NCBI RefSeq assembly: GCF_042242105.1
Contig: NC_092029.1
Location: 13,223,885 to 13,287,884 of the forward strand
Reading direction: 5' to 3'
DNA length: 64,000 nucleotides
Origin: Pempheris klunzingeri
Taxonomy: Eukaryota; Chordata; Actinopteri; Acropomatiformes; Pempheridae
In this document: one piece after another, positions 14,582 to 49,500 of the stretch
Layout of the letters: each line of letters begins with the position of its first letter
How positions within the stretch are numbered: the stretch's first letter is position 1
Translations under genes and position numbers: made by a program
Notes under the pieces: generated by a model
Told to the model about the DNA's origin: nothing
Database searches by the model: none
The model's input: only the letters and a program-made list of their open reading frames with translations

Positions 14582-16859
14582 CTACTTTTTGGCAGTCTGG
14601 AGACGCTCGCTCACATTCTCCCAGTTAATGACGTTCCAGATAGCCTTAACATAGTCCGGCCGCACATTTTTGTACTGCAGGTAGTAGGCATGCTCCCATA
14701 CATCGATACCGAGGAGGGGGACGAGGCCTGAGGGTCAGAGACAAGACACATTTGCCCTGATGGCTCTGTTTCATATGTGCAATTTGACAAAGGACAGTAT
14801 GAGGGGAAAATATGAAGAACATACTGTAGAAAAAGAGTTTTATCTGTACTTAAAAAGCTGTTTTTCAACTGACCTGTAGTTCCCTGCAGGGGATCCTGGT
14901 TAGCACAGGCAGCAATGCGAAGTCTTCCATTCTCCTTGTCGTAGCCCAGCCAGCCCCAGCCCGAGCCCTGCACTGCCACTGTAGCAGCAGACATCTTCTC
15001 CTTCATCTTCTGGAAGGAGCCAAAGTCCCGCTTAATGGCCTCCATCAGCTCCCCTACAGGAAGTGACACAGACAGGTGCTACTTCAGGGAAGTACCAGAC
15101 ATCAAAACCAAGAAACAAAACCAAAAAGCATTTTGACTAAACTTAATCTGCATGTCAACTAGTTTATATTTTCTGCAAGACAGCTGCTCTGTCAGCCTCA
15201 TAGTAACTAATAATTTCTCCTAAGTCTTTTGCTGTGGAAACTCTCACATTATGTATATGCTGAATTTAACCCCTTTGACCACTAGGAGGCAGAAATCAAC
15301 CTTAGTGTAACACAATGCTGAGACGCCACTGGCTTTTCAGGTTACTGTGGAAAACATGGGGGTCATGTTTCTGCCCACCTGATGGATTTGAGTCCAATAT
15401 TAACTCACGTTTTAGTTCTAGTTTGGTATTCAAAATCCTTAAAAAACATATTGGACTTAAGCTCACTGGATGCATCATAAACCACTCATTTGCTTTTTTT
15501 ACTTTGACTGGCCAGCTACATGTTCTGTTTGTGGCTGCAGAAGGTGGTAAGATTAAAAAATCCAGTCTGTTTGAGGGCCAGTAACATCCCAGAAACAATA
15601 AGATGAGTCATATGTTGCTTAATGCAGGAGCAAGTTAACTACAAAACAAAGCAGAGTGTGAAAAATAACTGAAGACAAGTTGTTGGAAGTGTTTCTGCCT
15701 CACCCTGTGGCTCGCCTCCACCATTTGGAGAGAGGTTTGTCCAGAAAATGCTGTGGTTAATGTGGCCTCCTCCATTAAACTTCAGGGCAAGCTGGAGGCT
15801 AACTTGGGCGGTCACATCTCCTAAAATACATGTCAAACACATGCAGGTGAGTACGAAGACATCAGGCATGCAAGGAAAAGTTACAAAAAAACTTAAATAG
15901 ATGTTAGGGATGACACATAAAAATGTTTCCCAGACATAAATATTAAAAAATGTATCCTGAGTCCCTCATTTTTAACAAATCCAGATTTACATCTCCACGT
16001 ACAGGAACAATTCTGCTGCTTGGTTCACGTGAGTTTGTGTTTGTACCTTTTGCTAGTGCCTCCTGATATTTCTCCTCTGTGACGTTCAGGTTGTTGACAT
16101 ATGTGGCATGGTGCTTGCTGTGGTGCAGCTGCATTATCTCTGCGCAGATGTGGGGCTCCAGGGCGCCATAGTCATAGGTCAAGTCAGGGAGCGTGTGCTT
16201 CTGCCTTGACGCAGCTACCTGGCTTATAGTTTGGCTGACGCTGGCTGCACACCTAAAACAAAGCAGAGGAAAAACTTATCACAACACTTTAATAGAAATA
16301 ATATGTAGAATATAAGAAGTTAGTGAGATTTTGGTTCCCACTTGTCTAGAAATACAAGAATAACAAAGATTAAAGACTACCTGTGTGACTAAATTACACA
16401 GTCTTGGTCCAAGATAGCCTGTCCTGTATTAGTTTAAGTTACAGCAGTTTGATAATCCTTGAGAGACTAGCTTAAAAGGAACTTAATATCTAGTATTGAT
16501 TATGGATCAACATACAGCAAGTCAGGTTAGGTGGTTAGATATGGCTGGTTGAGCTAGTGGTACCGGGTTAGCTAGGTGTAAACAAGTATGGCCGAATAAA
16601 TTCGGGTTACTTTAGGACTACCTGTTGTGTGATAATTACAAACAAACTAAACCCTTTTGGTGCGCCACATGCTAGACTAAGTTAGCATCCTGTCTAGCTA
16701 ACGGTTAGCTCAACAACAACAACTGTCTCAAGTTCATGAGCAGTCGCTGCTGGCAGAAGTCAGCTGTCCTAATTCCTTATGCACTCTGAACACGCGAATG
16801 ACACTAAATGTTAAGCTGATATCAGATTACCTGCGTATTTGAGCAACTCTGACAAGCAT
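14582..16859 (-). CDS. sod2: superoxide dismutase [Mn], mitochondrial
   Basis: Converts superoxide to hydrogen peroxide and oxygen in the mitochondrial matrix, as a manganese enzyme that is tetrameric in vertebrates. Five coding exons, in transcript order: 16831-16859, 16047-16252, 15704-15820, 14874-15053, 14582-14727. All introns are GT-AG, the joins are in phase, and the total is 225 aa against 222 in human. Residues 1 to about 28 form a basic, serine-rich mitochondrial presequence; the mature part begins near [18 protein letters not shown]. The four metal ligands are present: H53, H101, D186 and H190 (DVWEHAYY signature at 186-193). I chose the start [10 protein letters not shown] because it matches the length and start of other fish SOD2 proteins. 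Two further in-frame ATGs lie just upstream, at 16865 and 16877. The gene is head to head with WTAP. Confidence 0.97.
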
Positions 16860-30563: not shown

Positions 30564-30721
30564 AAGTGTCCAAAAAAAAAACAAACACTTACAGATCCTC
30601 CAGAAGCGAAAGCCCAGAGGGAGTGGGAGAACAGTAAACAGGCAAAGTGTACAGCCTACACTAGAGCAACAGCCATGAAGAGCTCCTAATGTATAAATAG
30701 ACGATGACCAATTGCAGCCTT

Positions 30722-33700
30722 TTAACCCTCGAGAGATCCTGACTGGACTGCATCCTGGTACGACTGCCCGCCCTCCTTCTGCTCTGGGAACAGTTTGATG
30801 AGGTCGTCAATACGGAGGATGGTGATGGCGGCCTCTGTGGCGAACTTGAGGCTCTTTGTTTTAACCATGGTGGGTTCGTACACGCCAGCCTGACGGTTGT
30901 CTCTAGGCTTGCCGTTCAGCAGGTCCAGACCAATCCTGCAAGACAAAAGAAAAGTATCCAAATACTGCACGTTCAACATAATAAGGTAACTTGGCGCCTG
31001 AGAGAAAGACAAACTTCAGAATGACAAGTGAGCGTCATCTCAGCCTAAACATTTCAGACCAGATGACTAAATCTATGGTAATAATTAACAGATGCAACCA
31101 CTCACCACTTGAGATTCTTGCGCTCAGGATTAACCTGAGCCTCGTTGTGGAAGGCCCGAAGCTTGGCCACCAGATCGGTGGAGTCCTGTGCTGCGTTCAC
31201 AGCCAGCGTCTTGGGGATGACGAGGAGAGACCGAGCAAACTCAGCAATGGCCAGCTGCTCTCGGGAACCCTGAAGAAAAAGCAACGAGGACGATTTCATC
31301 GTTGGGGTAACTGTGCGACCACAACATGCTCCGTTGTCTCAACAGCTGCATGCTTGACAATGAAGACGTTTTTCATAGGATGTTGCTCACCATGCTGGTA
31401 GCGTAATTCTCAAGGTAGATGGACAGAGCCGCCTCCACAGCGCCTCCTCCTGGAACCACAGACTTGGACTCCAGCACCCTCTTGACCACACAGAGGGCAT
31501 CATGCAGTGAACGCTCCATCTCGTCACACATGAAGTCATTGGCCCCGCGCAAAATGATGGATGCTGATGTGCGTGCTTTGGTACTGTGGGGATTAACAGT
31601 AAGGAGACAACAGAACCAGTACAGTTAATGTGTCATACTGTAGAACACTTACACAAATACTCTTATTGTACCAGTTTATACGACTCCTGCCAGAACTACA
31701 GATGAAGTACGATTGCAGGCACTGAAATGTTCCGTCAAACTCTTTTCTAGGTAAAGTTCACAGCATAAGTCATTGTTGTATATAGTTGCTTTTCTTACTT
31801 CTTGACAAGGATGAGCTCGTCGTCACAGACTCGTTCCTGCACAACTTCCTCAGCATTGCCAAGCATAGTGGCCTCAAACGTCTCCTCACCCTCCAGATTG
31901 GTCAGGGAGGGGCAGAGGGTGGCTGTGAATCAACAAAACACAACTAACGTCATCACGATATTTGAGTTTAAACCACCGATTAACATTAAACCATGTGCAC
32001 AGATGTAAAAAGCAGTTACACAAAACCCCATCAGCACAAACTTAAGCGTACTTCCGTCCTACCTCCTGTGGCCTTGGCGATGCGTTTGAGGTCCCTCTTG
32101 AGAACCCTTCTCACTGCCATGGCTCCAACATCCACAAAGTACTTAAGACACATGTCATCAATGCCACCAGTGGTCAGGATAACGTTGGCGCCTGCTGCCA
32201 GAATCTTCTGGATCCTCTCCTTGGTGATATCCGATTCTCTGTAGCAACAAAGTCCATTATTATTTCAGTTTCACCAATAACGTTAACATGCAAAACGATT
32301 CTAACACAAAATTGTCCAGCCCACAGTACTTGTACAACAGCTCAGTTAGAAGCTGCTGCCTCGAATCAGGCTGCTTATATTTTCTCCCACGCGTATCACT
32401 GTGTAAACTACTGATTCAGCATCACAGCAAATTTAAATGGGATAATTCTTAAGGGTGCATTTGTGACATCACAAGGAGGAGAAAAACAGTATCTACCTTT
32501 GTCTGATCTGGTCAAGCTTCTCTGGGTCGTTGATAATGACTTGGACTCCCATCTTCATCTTGGTCTTCTGCAGGCTGAAGTCCAGGCAAGCAATCTTGGC
32601 GTTAACAATACGCTTTACCATCCCTGTGGGAAAACAAAAGAAACTACATCTTCAACAGAGAAACATCCGGAAAATAATTAAAATCGACTACACCTTACAG
32701 CAGTATATATAATAGTATAAAAAAAGATGCTAAAAACATGTCATTTTATTTTGGAGTATTATTCCAGTGTCTGGCTAAAAAAGTGGTGCCACAGTTTACA
32801 CACTACTGTGTCGACATTCCTTTCAAAGCCAGTGTACTCTCTCCCACGCGTATCACTGCTCACGCCATCAGGTGAGACATGGCAGCAAATTTAAATGGGA
32901 GTTTAATCGGGTGCAGTAGTTACATTTCCGATTCTGGAATTTCAGACTTTGCAACCAACACACCTTGTGAGCCAACTGTGCAGTTCAGTGCGTATCCATT
33001 CACCAAGAAGCTCTCTTTCTGGCTGCGGCCGTGGGCTTTCAGCACATTGACAGAGTTGATGGGATATTTGGCCACCCCTTTGCTGTCCACAAACTTCACA
33101 GCCAGGGCAGCCTCCACCACCATGTTTGCAAAGAAGTCAGCATCACTGAAGGATCAGGGTTAAGGCAGACAAGGGCTTTGCTCGTATGTAAGTACAAATT
33201 GAGCTATACAAAAAAAAAAGGCACAGATTTTGTCAGTTGGATCCAAACAGAACATTTTACGCACTGTACAAAAAAAAAGGATACACTCCAATGATTTTGG
33301 AAGACATGGAGGTCTTGGCTGCATTTACTAAGCACTCTCTACCCAGGTCATCTGTCCCGATAGTGAGATTCTCACTAATGTAGCGAACTGCCTCCCTGGA
33401 GGATGGAAAAGGTTTGCATGTCAAAAAAATAAAATCTGTACACAGCTTAAGCCCCCAAAGATCATCAGTGTCTATTTCTAAAAACACTTCTGAACTCAAC
33501 ATTTAGCATCTTACTTGCAAGCAAGACGATATCCACTGATGACTGATGTGGGGTGAATCTTTTGCTTCACCAGCTCATCTGCACTCTTCAGCAATTCTGC
33601 CGCAAGAATTACCTAAAAACGGTGTAACGAGACACACATTATAAGTAAAAATTAAGTTTAGTATTCCAACCGAGAACACATTGTTACACTACAACTTAAA

Positions 33701-34868
33701 CATTGTACCATCATTTCATTAGGGGCGGCAGAAATGAAGCTGCTCAACCCCTTCAGATACTGACGGGCAGTTTCTCTCTCCTGTTAGCATAGCCACACAT
33801 CCGTATTAAAAGGCAGATGCATGGTACTAAAACAGGACATTAAAGATCACCTTTACAGTAAACTGACCACTTTTGCCTACCAGGCACAGTCCTATCTCAC
33901 TGTGACAACACATGAAGCTTGTATCGCTCAACTCATACGCCATGACACCATATAGGAGCAGCAGTTTGACCATACTCACCACAGATGTGGTCCCATCTCC
34001 GACCTCTTTGTCCTGCAGGTCAGCCAGCTCACACAGGACCTTGGCTGCTGGGTGCTCCACTTCCAGCAGCTTCAGGATGGTTGCTCCATCGTTGGTGATG
34101 GTCACGTCCTGTCAACACGTCCATGAGACAGATGAGCAACTCACGCCACAATGTTCATTACAGAGTAAACAAGAATGATAAATGGAGCTGGTATTGTTGG
34201 ATGTGACACAGACCCCAATGTCGTCCACCAACATCTTATCGAGACCAACAGGTCCGAGGGAGCTCTTGACGATGTTGGCGATGGAAGCTGCGGCCATAAC
34301 TGCAAAGACAAGGAGGAGGCTGCTACTAGCGAACAAGTACTCAAATGGTGTTTTCTCTCCAGCTGCTGCATCCTTTAGCACGTCTGATTTCACTTATAAC
34401 AGTTCCTCTGTACTTGACATATTCTGCCACTTTATTTGGTGAGGCTCACGGTGAGTTAGCCACACCCTCAGATCATGACAGTGTTTTTCTGTCCCATTAG
34501 CATAGCCGTCCATTCATGGTGATGCGAGTGGAAGGTACTGAAATGGGATTACAACTTCATAATTACTTAGGTTGGGTGTGTAGTGCACATCGTGTGTCGC
34601 TACCAGTCTTGTCTGTGCTCTGAAGAATCTCAGCAGAGACGCAGTACAGTTAACATAAAAGTTAGCTAGCATTAGCATTAGCCACACGTGTGTTAACACG
34701 CAGTGGATTAAATCATTCTCCCTTCGAACATTCGTGACGCACGGAAAATACATGAAGTGTGCATGAAACATAAAGAAATAAGCACCGCAACTCACCATTT
34801 TGAGTACGAACCGATTCGCCAGTTGTTCTCTGGCCGAGCACATTTAACGGACCCTCTAGTAGCGACAT
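30722..34868 (-). CDS. tcp1: T-complex protein 1 subunit alpha (CCT1)
   Basis: One of the eight subunits of the cytosolic CCT/TRiC chaperonin, which folds actin, tubulin and other proteins with ATP. Twelve coding exons, in transcript order: 34796-34868, 34214-34299, 33980-34108, 33515-33612, 33285-33395, 32964-33145, 32497-32623, 32063-32238, 31799-31922, 31391-31583, 31106-31269, 30722-30935. All joins are in phase, giving 558 aa (human 556). Group II chaperonin ATP-site motifs are intact: TNDGATIL near residues 58-65, GDGTTS at 90-95 and VVPGGGAVE near 411-419. Exon 5 must end at 33285 (GGAGT|GTATCC): the other donor two bases earlier breaks the frame. Four introns carry H/ACA snoRNA folds, so the gene also acts as a snoRNA host. 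The promoter has a heat-shock element. Confidence 0.97.
32310..32443 (-). ncRNA. H/ACA box snoRNA in TCP1 intron 7 (SNORA20-like)
   Basis: Two hairpins can be folded by eye. The 5' hairpin has a lower stem TCCCA/TGGGA, an open pocket with strands TTTAAAT and TACGCG, and an upper stem TTGCTGTG/CACAGTGA. The hinge carries an H box (AAAATA or AGAAAA). The 3' hairpin has a CAGCC/GGCTG lower stem and an inner CAGCT/AGCTG stem. It ends GGACAATT, placing an ACA box three bases from the end. The length of 134 nt is normal for the class. Human TCP1 introns host SNORA20 and SNORA29. The 5' pocket fits the 18S rRNA sequence GCGUA-U-A-UUAAA, which points to SNORA20; the assignment is inferred. Confidence 0.8.
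32765..32900 (-). ncRNA. second H/ACA snoRNA of the same family, in TCP1 intron 6
   Basis: It shares the 5' pocket and stem with the intron 7 copy base for base: TCCCATTTAAATTTGCTG on the 5' side and CAGTGATACGCGTGGGAG on the 3' side. The hinge is AGAGTA, a good ANANNA H box. The 3' hairpin has a CTGGCT/AGCCAG lower stem and ends AGACACTG, with ACA three bases from the end. The 3' half has diverged strongly from the intron 7 copy, so the two are paralogues rather than an assembly duplicate. The length is about 136 nt. Confidence 0.78.
33701..33838 (-). ncRNA. H/ACA snoRNA in TCP1 intron 3 (SNORA29-like, inferred)
   Basis: The 5' hairpin has a seven-base-pair lower stem, TCCTGTT/AACAGGA, a pocket with strands TTAGTA and CTATGCT, and an upper stem GCATC/GATGT. 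The hinge AGAGAA matches the H box. The 3' hairpin pairs TGCC(C)GTCA with TGATGGTA and contains a strong inner hairpin GGGG...GCAG/CTGC...CCCC. It ends TACAATG, giving an ACA box three bases from the end. The 3' half also happens to read as an open frame flanked by AG and GT. I take that to be a coincidence. Confidence 0.7.
34417..34548 (-). ncRNA. second H/ACA snoRNA of that family, in TCP1 intron 1
   Basis: The 5' hairpin has a TCCCATT/AATGGGA lower stem. The pocket-flanking blocks TTCAGTACC and GGCTATGCTAA match the intron 3 copy (TTTAGTACC and GGCTATGCTAA). The hinge has AGAAAA (H box). The 3' hairpin pairs CTGTCA with TGGCAG around an inner GAGG/CCTC stem. The terminal box appears to be ATA (AATATGT) rather than ACA, a known functional variant. 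The covarying lower stem (TCCTGTT/AACAGGA against TCCCATT/AATGGGA) supports a real RNA fold. Confidence 0.65.
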
Positions 34869-34904
34869 TTTGGACCACCACACCACCGAGAAGAAAGGAA
34901 GTGG

Positions 34905-44000: not shown

Positions 44001-46465
44001 AAAGTAAAGCTAAGCATGTCTAGTTTAGCAAAAAACTAAAAGAAAATATGGAGAAAAATGCAGAAAATGAGTGTAAAAGTGTAAAAATCGTGGGTTTTTA
44101 AAGATAGTGTGAAATAGGTGGATAAAGGGATGTCTGATGCTCTACTGTATAGAGGGAGAAACAGATTAAAGATGGAAAAAACAGAGAGAAGGAGTCAAAG
44201 GAAAAGTAAAAAAAAACCTTCACCTCTCAGTGAGGGTATGAAAAAAATACTAATAATGAAGAGAACAAAACAACAAAATCTGAACATTTCTATCTGGCCA
44301 ATCCGTTCTCTAGACACTAAGAGTAAATGCTTCCAGACGTATTTATGCATTTATTTGACCTTTCTGGCTCCCAGCTGATAAAAGAAACAAGCTTCCCTTT
44401 TATGTGTTCTCCTTATGCAAGCCCATCATTAGGCCAGTGGGAAACGCAGTGACTTGCATAAGACGTAGGGAGGATCAGAGCCTTGGCCGGTTCAGACCTA
44501 GAGTTCACATAACTGTTCTGCAGGACAATAAAAGAATCGGCTCCTTGAGAGGCTCGAAATTACCGTGTCTGTTTTAGTTATAGGAATAATGAGAGACATG
44601 GAACGTGTGCAGCATACGTCATGGAGGAGATCAAACGCTCAACATCTACTGGATTCAGGTTTTGAGGTTTTGAGCAAGTGGGACAACACTGACCGTTCCA
44701 ACCATCTTACTTATTTTGTGTGTTTGTGCTTGTCATACCTGCAACCTAACGGCGTGCTCATGTTTCCTCTTCATGTCGTTGATGTGCCAGGCCACTCTCT
44801 GCATGGTGTCTATGGCTTCCTGCACAACCTCGTAGGTCTCTGTGTCCTTCTCCATGTGATTGGCTATCTCCTGCACGGATGAGAGACACACACACACCAG
44901 TGAGACTCAGCACTTGCACATACAGCATGCACGTAGGCTCGCACACGCATGTTCATGAAGACATGCAAAAGGGGTGCAAACACCCATGTGTGTGTTTCTG
45001 CACATAAACACACACTCATGCATGCACTCTAATGCAAACGCATACATGGCTTACATACGCAGGAACAAACAAACTGAGCACCATATGGCAAAACATTTGG
45101 CCTCTCCAGTGGAGATGGAAATGAGTCAGAAATGCTATTATTTCACTATATACATCCATCCATTTGCGTTGGTATAAATAAAAACATTAGTGTGTCCTGA
45201 GCACTTACAACTGTGCCCCAGTGCTTGTATTTCTGTGGGTAAAGGGTGATTGTGTGTGTGTAAGTGTGTGTAGGAGTGAGACAGATGACATACGTGCAGC
45301 AGTAGGTGGTACTTCAGGATCCTCTGCACTGGCTTGAGCAGGTAGGAGCCCAGGGGCAAGGAGTGCCTCAGAGATTCTTGGCGCTCGCGGAAAAACTTGG
45401 CCAACGCCTTGTTCCTCATGCACTCTGTTAGCACAGCCACCGACCTGTGGAGACAAAACTCAGCAAATAAGACATCAGTAGAAAACCAGAATTTAACAGC
45501 GATGACAAGCAAGAGCTGTAATGTAGGTCCTGACCGACAATAATAAATAAGGAAAATGGACACAAATCATTAAAAACACATTTGAAGGAGTTCGAGAGAG
45601 ATTTTAGCATGCTAAGTGTCTCCATCCATCTATCTGTCTTTTGTTGAAATTTTACCTCATAGTGGCTTCAGCTAAATTTTTGAGTACATTTTTTTTAGAA
45701 TGAGAGATCATGTAATGGCCACAATGAACAGGAAGTGTGACAACAAACAAAACCTATTTCAGTGTTCATATGGGCATCCAACTATTGTTCTAACACACAT
45801 GTTCAACGTTGCAATGTTTGTATTACATCAGATCAAACTCTTTAAATGTGTAAATACAAATATAATTTCATTTATTCTCAATTAGAATTTGCTTGTAATT
45901 TTTCATGCTACTGATTGATAAATGATAATAGTATAAATTATCATTCAGTTCGGTTTCAGCCTCAGACCTCAATCTCAAATTATCTACTGTCTTCCTAGAC
46001 AGCATTCATTGATTCTTGGTACATATTCTACTAAAACAGCATTACCAGAGCTAGTTTGCTGTGAGACACACTGAGGAAGAAAGAGCCTTTTTTCATGACC
46101 GAATGTAGGTTTTTATGTGTGTGTGTGTGTGTGTGTGTACACATACACATGCACAGTGAAAAAGACAGAGAGAGACAGTTGTGAATTGCCCAAAATGTGC
46201 CTTTCGTCTGTGTCTGTGTCTTTGTGCATGTCTGCATGCCTAAATTCCAGTGAAGCTCCACACAGGCCTCACATTGTTCTGGAGGAAACCCGACCTTAGA
46301 GCTCAGCATGACCATGATACATCTGCAGCCTCTGTGTGTGTGCGTGTGTGTGTGTGCGTGTGTGTGTGTCTGTCGTGTGTGACCTTGATTGGGGGTCACC
46401 AGCTGTGGTGTGGATGTGGGAGAAGGTCTATGTCAAACAGCTGACAATACCCCCTTCACACACAA

Positions 46466-46558
<93 letters not shown>

Positions 46559-49500
46559 CAGCATTCAATTAGTCATTATTAGCTCTTAAATTGTTTGTTC
46601 CCCACGTGCCTTTCTCATCATACACTGTGAAAGAAAAATGGTAGCCGGAGGACAAGGTGTGTTTGGTAGGTAGTGTATGTCTTGGCCTCACGTTTCAGCC
46701 TATTTTACCACACACAATATGCACACTGTCACAAAAAAACCTCCACATTAACCTCCCAAGCTATCCATACAGGTGCCCCATGGAACCAGACTCACACAAA
46801 GCTTAATAAAACATTAACAGCGTTAGGTATGATAAGGTGACAACTATAATACCCCATCTGTCAGTGTGTGAGCTGTAACTCTGTCAATAGGCAGTGAATA
46901 AAAGAATGGTGGAAGAAAATGGAGCACGGAGGGAGGGAGGGAGACCCTGAGGCACAACTGAAGGTAGACACTTTGACTCCTGCGGAGGTGGCCTCTATGA
47001 AGCGTGTCAGTTTGTCAGGGAGGGGAAAAAAAGGTAACGCATTGAGCGACATACACAATGGAGCTATGTGAGACGCTGGGAAGACGGCATGTGGAGGTGA
47101 GATCAAGATAGGATGACAATGACAACAAGAAGATGGGTTTTGTACTGTAGACTGAATAAGCACAGTCTCAGACATAAACACACACACATAATGCATCCCC
47201 CAGCCTCTCACCCTTACCTTAACCATCACAACTAAATGCCTTACCCTAACCTAAACCTAATTCAACCATAATCATAAAACCAAGTCTTAACCCTCAAACG
47301 GCCCATTGAAGTAAAACAACCCAAAATGTCCTCACTCTGCACTAAAATGCCGGTTCTGGTCCTCATTATGTATCAAGCACAAGAACAAACACACACACAC
47401 TTTGGGTGCAGTCTTACCGTGGGTAGTTGGTGCAGTACTGAGTATAAATGTGGAATTCTTCACTCTGTAAAACACAACAAAGGGAAATTAGTTGATGCAT
47501 TTAAGGGACAGGAAACAGGAGATGTAGGGATGTCATGTGATGTTTATGGTTGTTGAACATGCCCTTTTAGGGTCGAGATTTATCATCCATCTTTGCCTCT
47601 TCATCACTACTTGTAGGTTGGTGCAGTTTTGATGACTGGCCAGTTGTTTCATGTTTATGTCTCTGCACACTCTGAGCCCACAGACAAGGCATCCTCTCTC
47701 CTTCGTTCACTGCTACTAATTGAAAGTCAACCCCGTAGCTTATGATTAGCCTGTGTCCTGGCCTTTAAGTCTCTGTTGATCCCGCCACCCCTGAGCGCTC
47801 AGATTAAATATCCCCTCATACTTCATTGCCGCCCCTTTAATTGAGACTTTTCCCACCTTGCATGCCTCTCTGAACATCAAAGACACCGGAGATGGCAAGA
47901 CTTTTCAAAGCTAAGCTTTCAAAGCTGTCTCCGTATTACTGATCCTTTCTCCTGATTTCAGTTGCCATTGCTCCATCAATATTTATGGATTTATTGCCCT
48001 TCACTTTCATAATATTGCATTCTTTTCTCCCTCTCCCTCTCGTTGTGGTCTCTTGGAGGCCTGGAGATGAACCCCTCACTGTTGCATAACTTGAGAGTCT
48101 AATTGAACTCTATTTGTGTCCATAAACACTTGGGGGTCGCAGGATACAGACAGCAATCAGGAAGCGACATCATAAACACACAGGGCAGATGGCCGAAGAC
48201 CATCATGGTTCATAATGTACAAACACACACATGCACGTATAGATAAATGTGGACATTCACACACACTTTCCAACATGTGATTCATCGTAAACTTACAGGA
48301 TGCATAGACCGAATGTATGTGGATGTTGTGTTTCTTGCTATATGTAAATATACATTCCTATTCAAGCCACAGCAAACCATTCAACCTACCTACACTAACA
48401 CAAACCCACCAAAATATACTGAACATAACAAAACACACGCACACAAATGCACACAGACAGACTCTCGTAATTTGTTCGCCTGAGGTGCTCCGTGGGAACT
48501 GTCCTAAATTGAAGAGCAGAGCTCTCCTCATCGTCTCCAGCAGTCTGTCGCCACAGACCAAGCCTAAACGCAACCAGATGTGCCACCATCGATTTCTGAC
48601 AACACACTAGCACACACTCCTAATACACACTCTTAATATCCCTCTGGACTGAGCACAAGACCACAAGATACATAAATGCTTCAATGGAGTACAAATTTGT
48701 GCAGAGCATGCAAGTCTGCACACACTCTTTGAACTCAACCAGGAAACCAGCAGACCCTGAAATAGCTCAGATCTATAATATAATTCCCCTCTAGAAATAT
48801 ATGCAAGCCATTCTAAATCATATAATCATCGTGTAAAGACGCTGTATGTAAGAGCCTTGAACTCGAGACACAAATTAAATGGAAAGATTTGTACTATTTT
48901 GAGCTGTGGCTACTAATAACTACACAGCGAAACAAAAAAAAGGCTTTGGAAGACTTTAATCAGCACCCAGTGATCATTTTAATGACAAAGTCAAAATCTG
49001 AAGTTTTTGTTATGATACTAATTTGTTGAGACTGGGAGACTGGACTGGGTCACATTGAGTCATCAGGTAAGGACTGAGCATGACAGATCACAAAGGGCAA
49101 AAAGAAGCTTAAGCTGTTGTTGTAATTGTGCCCTCTGTGCTTCAGCATGTAGCAACCCATAAAACGCTTTAAAGGCTTAGTCAACACATAGTGCAGTTAG
49201 GATTCAGCGGAATACAGAGGAACATGAGGATAGATGGCCAATTATCTGAGAGAGAGGCAGAGATTTACAACTAGATCTGTCTCTTCTTCAAACACTGTGC
49301 TGGATTGTGATTCTTGGCTGCTCAGACTAGAAAAGTATTAGCTGTGAGTGTGTTTAGTGGGCGTGTGTCTGTGCACGAGTGTGTGTCTGTGTGTGTCAGA
49401 AGTCAGTCTGTGCATTTGACAGCAGATAGTGAAAGAGAGTTTTGTGGTTTTTCTTGGTCTTAGCAACCATGACTAACCTTCAGCATTACAAAAGAGTTCT

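Follow-up and report, generated by a model that had tools for sequence, protein, structure and literature searches.

TCP1 and its four intronic H/ACA elements

The stretch analysed here, 64,000 nucleotides (nt) of contig NC_092029.1 from the fish Pempheris klunzingeri (assembly GCF_042242105.1, positions 13,223,885 to 13,287,884 of the forward strand; hereafter the window), contains the gene TCP1 (CCT1) on its minus strand at 30722..34868. The 12 coding exons of the gene give an intact protein of 558 amino acids when spliced. All 11 introns have GT-AG ends and the spliced frame has no internal stop, with exon limits placed by eye. Its best matches among solved structures in PDB, with scores of up to 1062.8 bits, are to T-complex protein 1 subunit alpha, which identifies the host gene as TCP1. 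Four of its introns, all read on the minus strand, hold an element of the box H/ACA class of small nucleolar RNA (snoRNA): a copy of SNORA29 lies in each of introns 1 (34795-34300) and 3 (33979-33613), and a SNORA20-like copy lies in each of introns 6 (32963-32624) and 7 (32496-32239). The elements have the anatomy of H/ACA RNAs, are located on the strand of their host, and are homologous in pairs. We are highly confident that they represent four intron-encoded box H/ACA snoRNAs derived from two duplications within the gene, one of SNORA29 (introns 1 and 3) and one of SNORA20 (introns 6 and 7).

The whole window was scanned against Rfam at the gathering thresholds and at E ≤ 0.5, and positions 30600-34900 were scanned at E ≤ 10, with permissive E values computed against all 4227 Rfam families. 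At the gathering thresholds, the 64 kb yielded two matches, both to SNORA29 (RF00429, gathering score 50), both on the minus strand, and both full length: 54.2 bits in intron 1 (34413..34550) and 51.1 bits in intron 3 (33697..33839). Full-length matches to SNORA20 (RF00401, gathering score 60) were found on the minus strand in intron 7 (32310..32444, 34.8 bits, E 0.0051) and intron 6 (32765..32902, 28.8 bits, E 0.1). Both are below the gathering score, and these elements are therefore named SNORA20-like; the name rests on the first hairpin and the host that they share with SNORA20. The scan of 30600-34900 returned eight matches at E ≤ 10, namely two to SNORA29, two to SNORA20, and four weak others, and no snoRNA model matched the other seven TCP1 introns up to E 10. 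The 14 matches in the whole window at E ≤ 0.5 include the intron 7 element (E 0.075) but not the intron 6 element. As SNORA20 was already expected in TCP1, its matches are better judged against one family than against 4227, which would make a chance origin much less likely for both. A match of SNORA74 over the intron 6 element was rejected (18.8 bits against a gathering score of 71).

The initial annotation of this DNA had placed H/ACA-type elements in introns 1, 3, 6, and 7 on the host strand. Both statements hold, and its element coordinates agree with the Rfam matches. The covariance-model check that it proposed gave hits in all four introns, with only the SNORA29 pair passing the gathering score. 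Its naming of the families is borne out, with the qualification that the SNORA20 pair is matched over the full length of the model at subthreshold scores.

The minimum-energy folds of all four elements contain the two main hairpins of a hairpin-hinge-hairpin-tail arrangement, with a few extra hinge-tail pairs in those of introns 1, 3, and 6. Fold z-scores, computed against 200 shuffles, are -2.82 for the intron 1 element (34413-34551), -4.20 for the intron 3 element (33697-33840), and -2.72 or -2.33 for the intron 7 element (32315-32445 or 32310-32447). The full-length intron 6 element has a z-score of -4.11, with 0/200 shuffles as good; when it is trimmed short of its lower stem, the score falls to -1.27, and 24/200 shuffles are as good. 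Every element has an ANANNA match that begins 14 nt past the first hairpin's upper stem, where 14-16 nt below the pocket was the spacing looked for, and these matches are the candidate H boxes: AGAAAA in intron 1 (34485..34490), AGAGAA in intron 3 (33772..33777), AGAGTA in intron 6 (32835..32840), and AAAATA in intron 7 (32378..32383), all on the minus strand. The elements of introns 1 and 7 hold additional ANANNA matches, 12 and 17 nt past that stem, and the spacing pattern is loose. The tail box, also on the minus strand, is AUA in intron 1 (34420..34422) and ACA in introns 3 (33704..33706), 6 (32768..32770), and 7 (32313..32315). Mature 3' ends, 3 nt past the tail box, are expected near 34417 for the intron 1 copy and near 33701 for the intron 3 copy. 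In the two SNORA29 copies, the second pocket lies 15 nt from the tail box, where 14-16 nt was taken as the criterion. For the SNORA20-like second hairpin, the anchor used in intron 6 gave a nominal 6 nt, which is no proper measure of the spacing.

Several other features of the window were recorded. TCP1 intron 5 (33146-33284, minus) begins with GTATCCTTTT and has CCTTAAC approximately 14 nt upstream of its AG end, which we take to resemble the pattern of a minor U12-type intron. The window contains 35 stop-to-stop frames of at least 110 amino acids; 10 were scanned against Pfam, and one scored above the cut-off. This single match, at 14611-15078 (minus), is to a superoxide dismutase C-terminal domain, probably of SOD2, which would agree with the proximity of SOD2 and TCP1 on human chromosome 6. 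At 46103-46584, below-gathering matches to microRNA and small Cajal body-specific RNA models are stacked on both strands, presumably over a simple repeat, and the remaining window matches at E ≤ 0.5 are weak singles.

Likeness within the pairs and the standing of the SNORA20-like copies

The copies in introns 1 and 3 share 86 of 137 aligned bases, with an alignment score of 100 against a mean of 41.5 (standard deviation (SD) 5.6) in 300 shuffles, i.e., 10.4 SD above the mean. For introns 6 and 7, 87 of 128 aligned bases are identical, and the score of 98 is 9.4 SD above the mean of 44.3 (SD 5.7, 300 shuffles). Two cross-pair comparisons were made, both with many gaps: the score was 62 for introns 1 and 6 (against a shuffle mean of 41.7 and maximum of 61; 80/121 identical) and 54 for introns 3 and 7 (against a shuffle mean of 45.3 and maximum of 62; 69/113 identical). 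The score separates within-pair from cross-pair comparisons, whereas the fraction of identical bases does not. The grouping of intron 1 with 3 and of intron 6 with 7, already suggested in the initial annotation, is confirmed by these scores. Four comparisons of flanks of up to 100 nt were made, and three did not exceed the shuffles. The exception is the flank upstream of the elements in introns 6 and 7, with a score of 31 against 17.7 (SD 3.7), a weak hint that some flanking sequence was duplicated as well. That the elements are chance hairpins in introns and not snoRNAs would be in keeping with the low SNORA20 scores, but two gathering-level matches in the expected host and the clear likeness inside both pairs make this explanation hardly credible.

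The stems of the SNORA29 pair show compensatory changes. Four of the 20 stem pairs examined in the SNORA29 copies are altered on both sides with pairing kept. Over both copies, 39 of 40 stem cells are paired, but the pairs were drawn from the intron 1 fold, and therefore only the intron 3 column (19/20) tests pairing; the Rfam consensus pairs at 17/20. In the first hairpin of the SNORA20-like copies, there is one both-sided change among 12 pairs, and one pair is broken in intron 6.

Some observations on the intron 6 and 7 elements count against the four-snoRNA reading. Both elements are under the RF00401 gathering score. The lower stem of their second hairpin, as aligned, pairs at 4/7 positions in intron 7 and 1/7 in intron 6, although these counts say little because the MAFFT rows are out of register, and a second hairpin does form in the separate fold of each copy. 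Finally, the right pocket arm reads GAUACGC in both copies and UAUACGC in the Rfam consensus; AUACGC is kept, but the G next to the pocket would presumably face the A that we take to lie beside the target uridine in 18S ribosomal RNA (rRNA), and guiding at this site may therefore be weaker. One eukaryotic 18S sequence pattern was searched, without a match. The elements in introns 6 and 7 might be diverged or decaying copies that guide nothing, with the SNORA29 pair functional. The missed gathering score, the shared replacement of U by G, and the modest fold z-scores (-2.3 to -2.7 for intron 7 and -1.3 for trimmed intron 6) are all compatible with such decay. However, both copies retain the first-hairpin blocks of the Rfam consensus, an H-box motif at 14 nt, and an ACA 3 nt from the aligned element end, and no shuffle folds as well as the full-length intron 6 element. 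Retention of the same parts would be surprising if both copies were decaying. We therefore consider decay unlikely, and favour the reading of both pairs as snoRNAs.

A candidate 28S target of SNORA29

By analogy with their families, the four snoRNAs would be released from spliced TCP1 introns and bound by the dyskerin complex, and a target uridine would be held in the pocket 14 nt from the H box. For SNORA29, a candidate target can be named. The right arm of its first hairpin, UAUGCU, is identical in both copies and the Rfam consensus, and its complement, AGCAUA, occurs at the 28S ribosomal RNA 5' end. We tentatively predict that the first pocket binds AAGCAUA-UU-A in this part of 28S and holds the first U of the UU.

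Two versions of the 28S 5' end were compared. A 28S probe, which we take as human, reads AGUCAG after AAGCAUAUU (PMC10174586). The second version, L001, comes from another animal and is the one animal-like 28S stretch found in genome contigs. The L001 contig is filed under Phycisphaerales bacterium, carries animal-like ribosomal DNA (rDNA; 5.8S, spacers, and 28S start), and is probably contamination. Its 28S start reads ACUAAG where the probe has AGUCAG. Two 28S patterns searched in viral contigs gave no match, and the printed primers found were a human-type 28S sequence and nematode or wasp primers, none being a fish rDNA primer by its title.

Pairing was counted as contiguous pairs in the left and right arms, with G-U taken as a pair and arms extended into the stem. 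For the Rfam SNORA29 consensus, the count is 8+6 at the human 28S 5' end and 8+1 in L001. Conversely, the intron 3 copy pairs 6+6 with L001 and 6+1 with human: its left arm (33826..33830, minus) forms six contiguous pairs with the L001 28S start, the sixth being a G-U pair that reaches into the stem, and its right arm (33786..33791, minus) forms six contiguous pairs. For the intron 1 copy, the counts are 6+3 (L001) and 6+1 (human). It thus seems that the guide tracks its target, the consensus fitting human 28S and the intron 3 copy fitting L001. Accordingly, SNORA29 may serve the uridine in AAGCAUA-U-U of 28S as a guide, or as a chaperone, and may have coevolved with this target: from the Rfam/human form to that of the present genome, two left-arm bases would have changed with two 28S bases, and the two copies found here differ in fit; we would put the chances of this proposal somewhat below even. 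In the mechanism so proposed, the first pocket would pair with the 28S 5' end and present the first of the two U residues.

Several observations speak against this target. In random 7.2 kb sequences, 200 each at a GC content of 0.5 and 0.6, the arms of the intron 3 copy score at least 12 in 40/200 and 21/200 sequences, respectively, and those of the intron 1 copy score at least 9 in 126/200 and 110/200. Elsewhere in L001, outside 5.8S and 28S as read here, both copies find a 7+5 match, which equals the proposed site for the intron 3 copy and beats it for the intron 1 copy (12 vs 6+3). Neither fish copy fits human 28S (6+1 each), and we know of no pseudouridine at the proposed site. Alternatively, SNORA29 may not guide modification of the 28S 5' end at all: its pocket match may be due to chance, or the RNA may act elsewhere or as a chaperone. 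We regard this as an evenly balanced question. The frequency of similar random scores for the fish copies is in line with this alternative, as are literature reports: SNORA29 is an orphan in the chicken survey (PMC2653536), a bovine study predicts other sites in its tables, 18S-1329 and 28S-4262 (PMC12427106), and snoRNAs complementary to rRNA positions that have never been found modified are described in PMC8522698. By contrast, the Rfam consensus arms reach their score of 14 in just 4/200 (GC 0.5) and 2/200 (GC 0.6) random sequences, and the positions at which the guide differs between the Rfam/human and intron 3/L001 combinations correspond to those at which 28S differs; both points argue for the 28S site.

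If the 28S target of SNORA29 is true, ACUAA rather than AGUCA should follow AAGCAUAUU in the 28S of the host species, and this prediction provides a cheap test for the target of an orphan guide. The interest of the locus lies in this testable target.

The second hairpin of the intron 1 copy (34413-34550) was also considered by eye. Its left arm, UGAUCUGAGG, looks like the complement of the very 5' end of vertebrate 28S. However, no pocket is formed there with the right arm, and we make no claim of a second-hairpin target in 28S.

Comparison with SNORA29, SNORA20, and duplicated snoRNAs of other vertebrates

SNORA29 (ACA29, RF00429) is represented here by two full-length covariance matches above the gathering score, and the intron 1 copy occupies the same intron as in chicken. 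This genome differs in having a second copy in intron 3, in the AUA tail of the intron 1 copy, and in the left guide arm, where both copies depart from the Rfam consensus. SNORA20 (ACA20, RF00401) is matched over its full length in the same host gene, and both SNORA20-like copies share the first-hairpin blocks TCCCATT, AATTTGCTG, CAGT, ATACGC, and TGGGA with the Rfam consensus. They differ from SNORA20 in their subthreshold scores, a diverged second hairpin, and the G for U beside the pocket.

In the chicken survey, chicken TCP1 has ACA29 in intron 1 and ACA20 in intron 9 by the numbering of that paper, with a single copy of each (PMC2653536), whereas two of each are present here and the SNORA20-like copies lie in introns 6 and 7. 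The survey classes chicken ACA29 as an orphan and gives chicken ACA20 a predicted 18S site for its first pocket, with a pairing of 3+7 nt. To speak of a doubling of both snoRNAs in TCP1 assumes an ancestor with one copy of each, as chicken has. Elsewhere, the C/D snoRNA SNORD87 is reported to have more copies in frog and zebrafish than in human (PMC3349704), and a review states that SNORA29 expression fell in the human lineage (PMC11758842).

The present work adds two snoRNA pairs that a protein-based annotation would miss. In the literature searched, outside which lay most subscription papers and genome-browser annotation, we found no report of paired SNORA20 or SNORA29 copies in fish TCP1, and automatic annotation of the loci may well exist. 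Approximately 90% of chicken H/ACA snoRNAs are single copy according to the survey, which tells against the reading of two duplications; in the same survey, nearly all chicken snoRNA paralogues came from duplication within a gene (PMC2653536). The paired arrangement in TCP1 is ordinary in kind. It resembles the cis-duplicated snoRNAs that the survey describes in chicken and platypus, where paralogues are distributed across the introns of one host and retain their guiding parts (PMC2653536).

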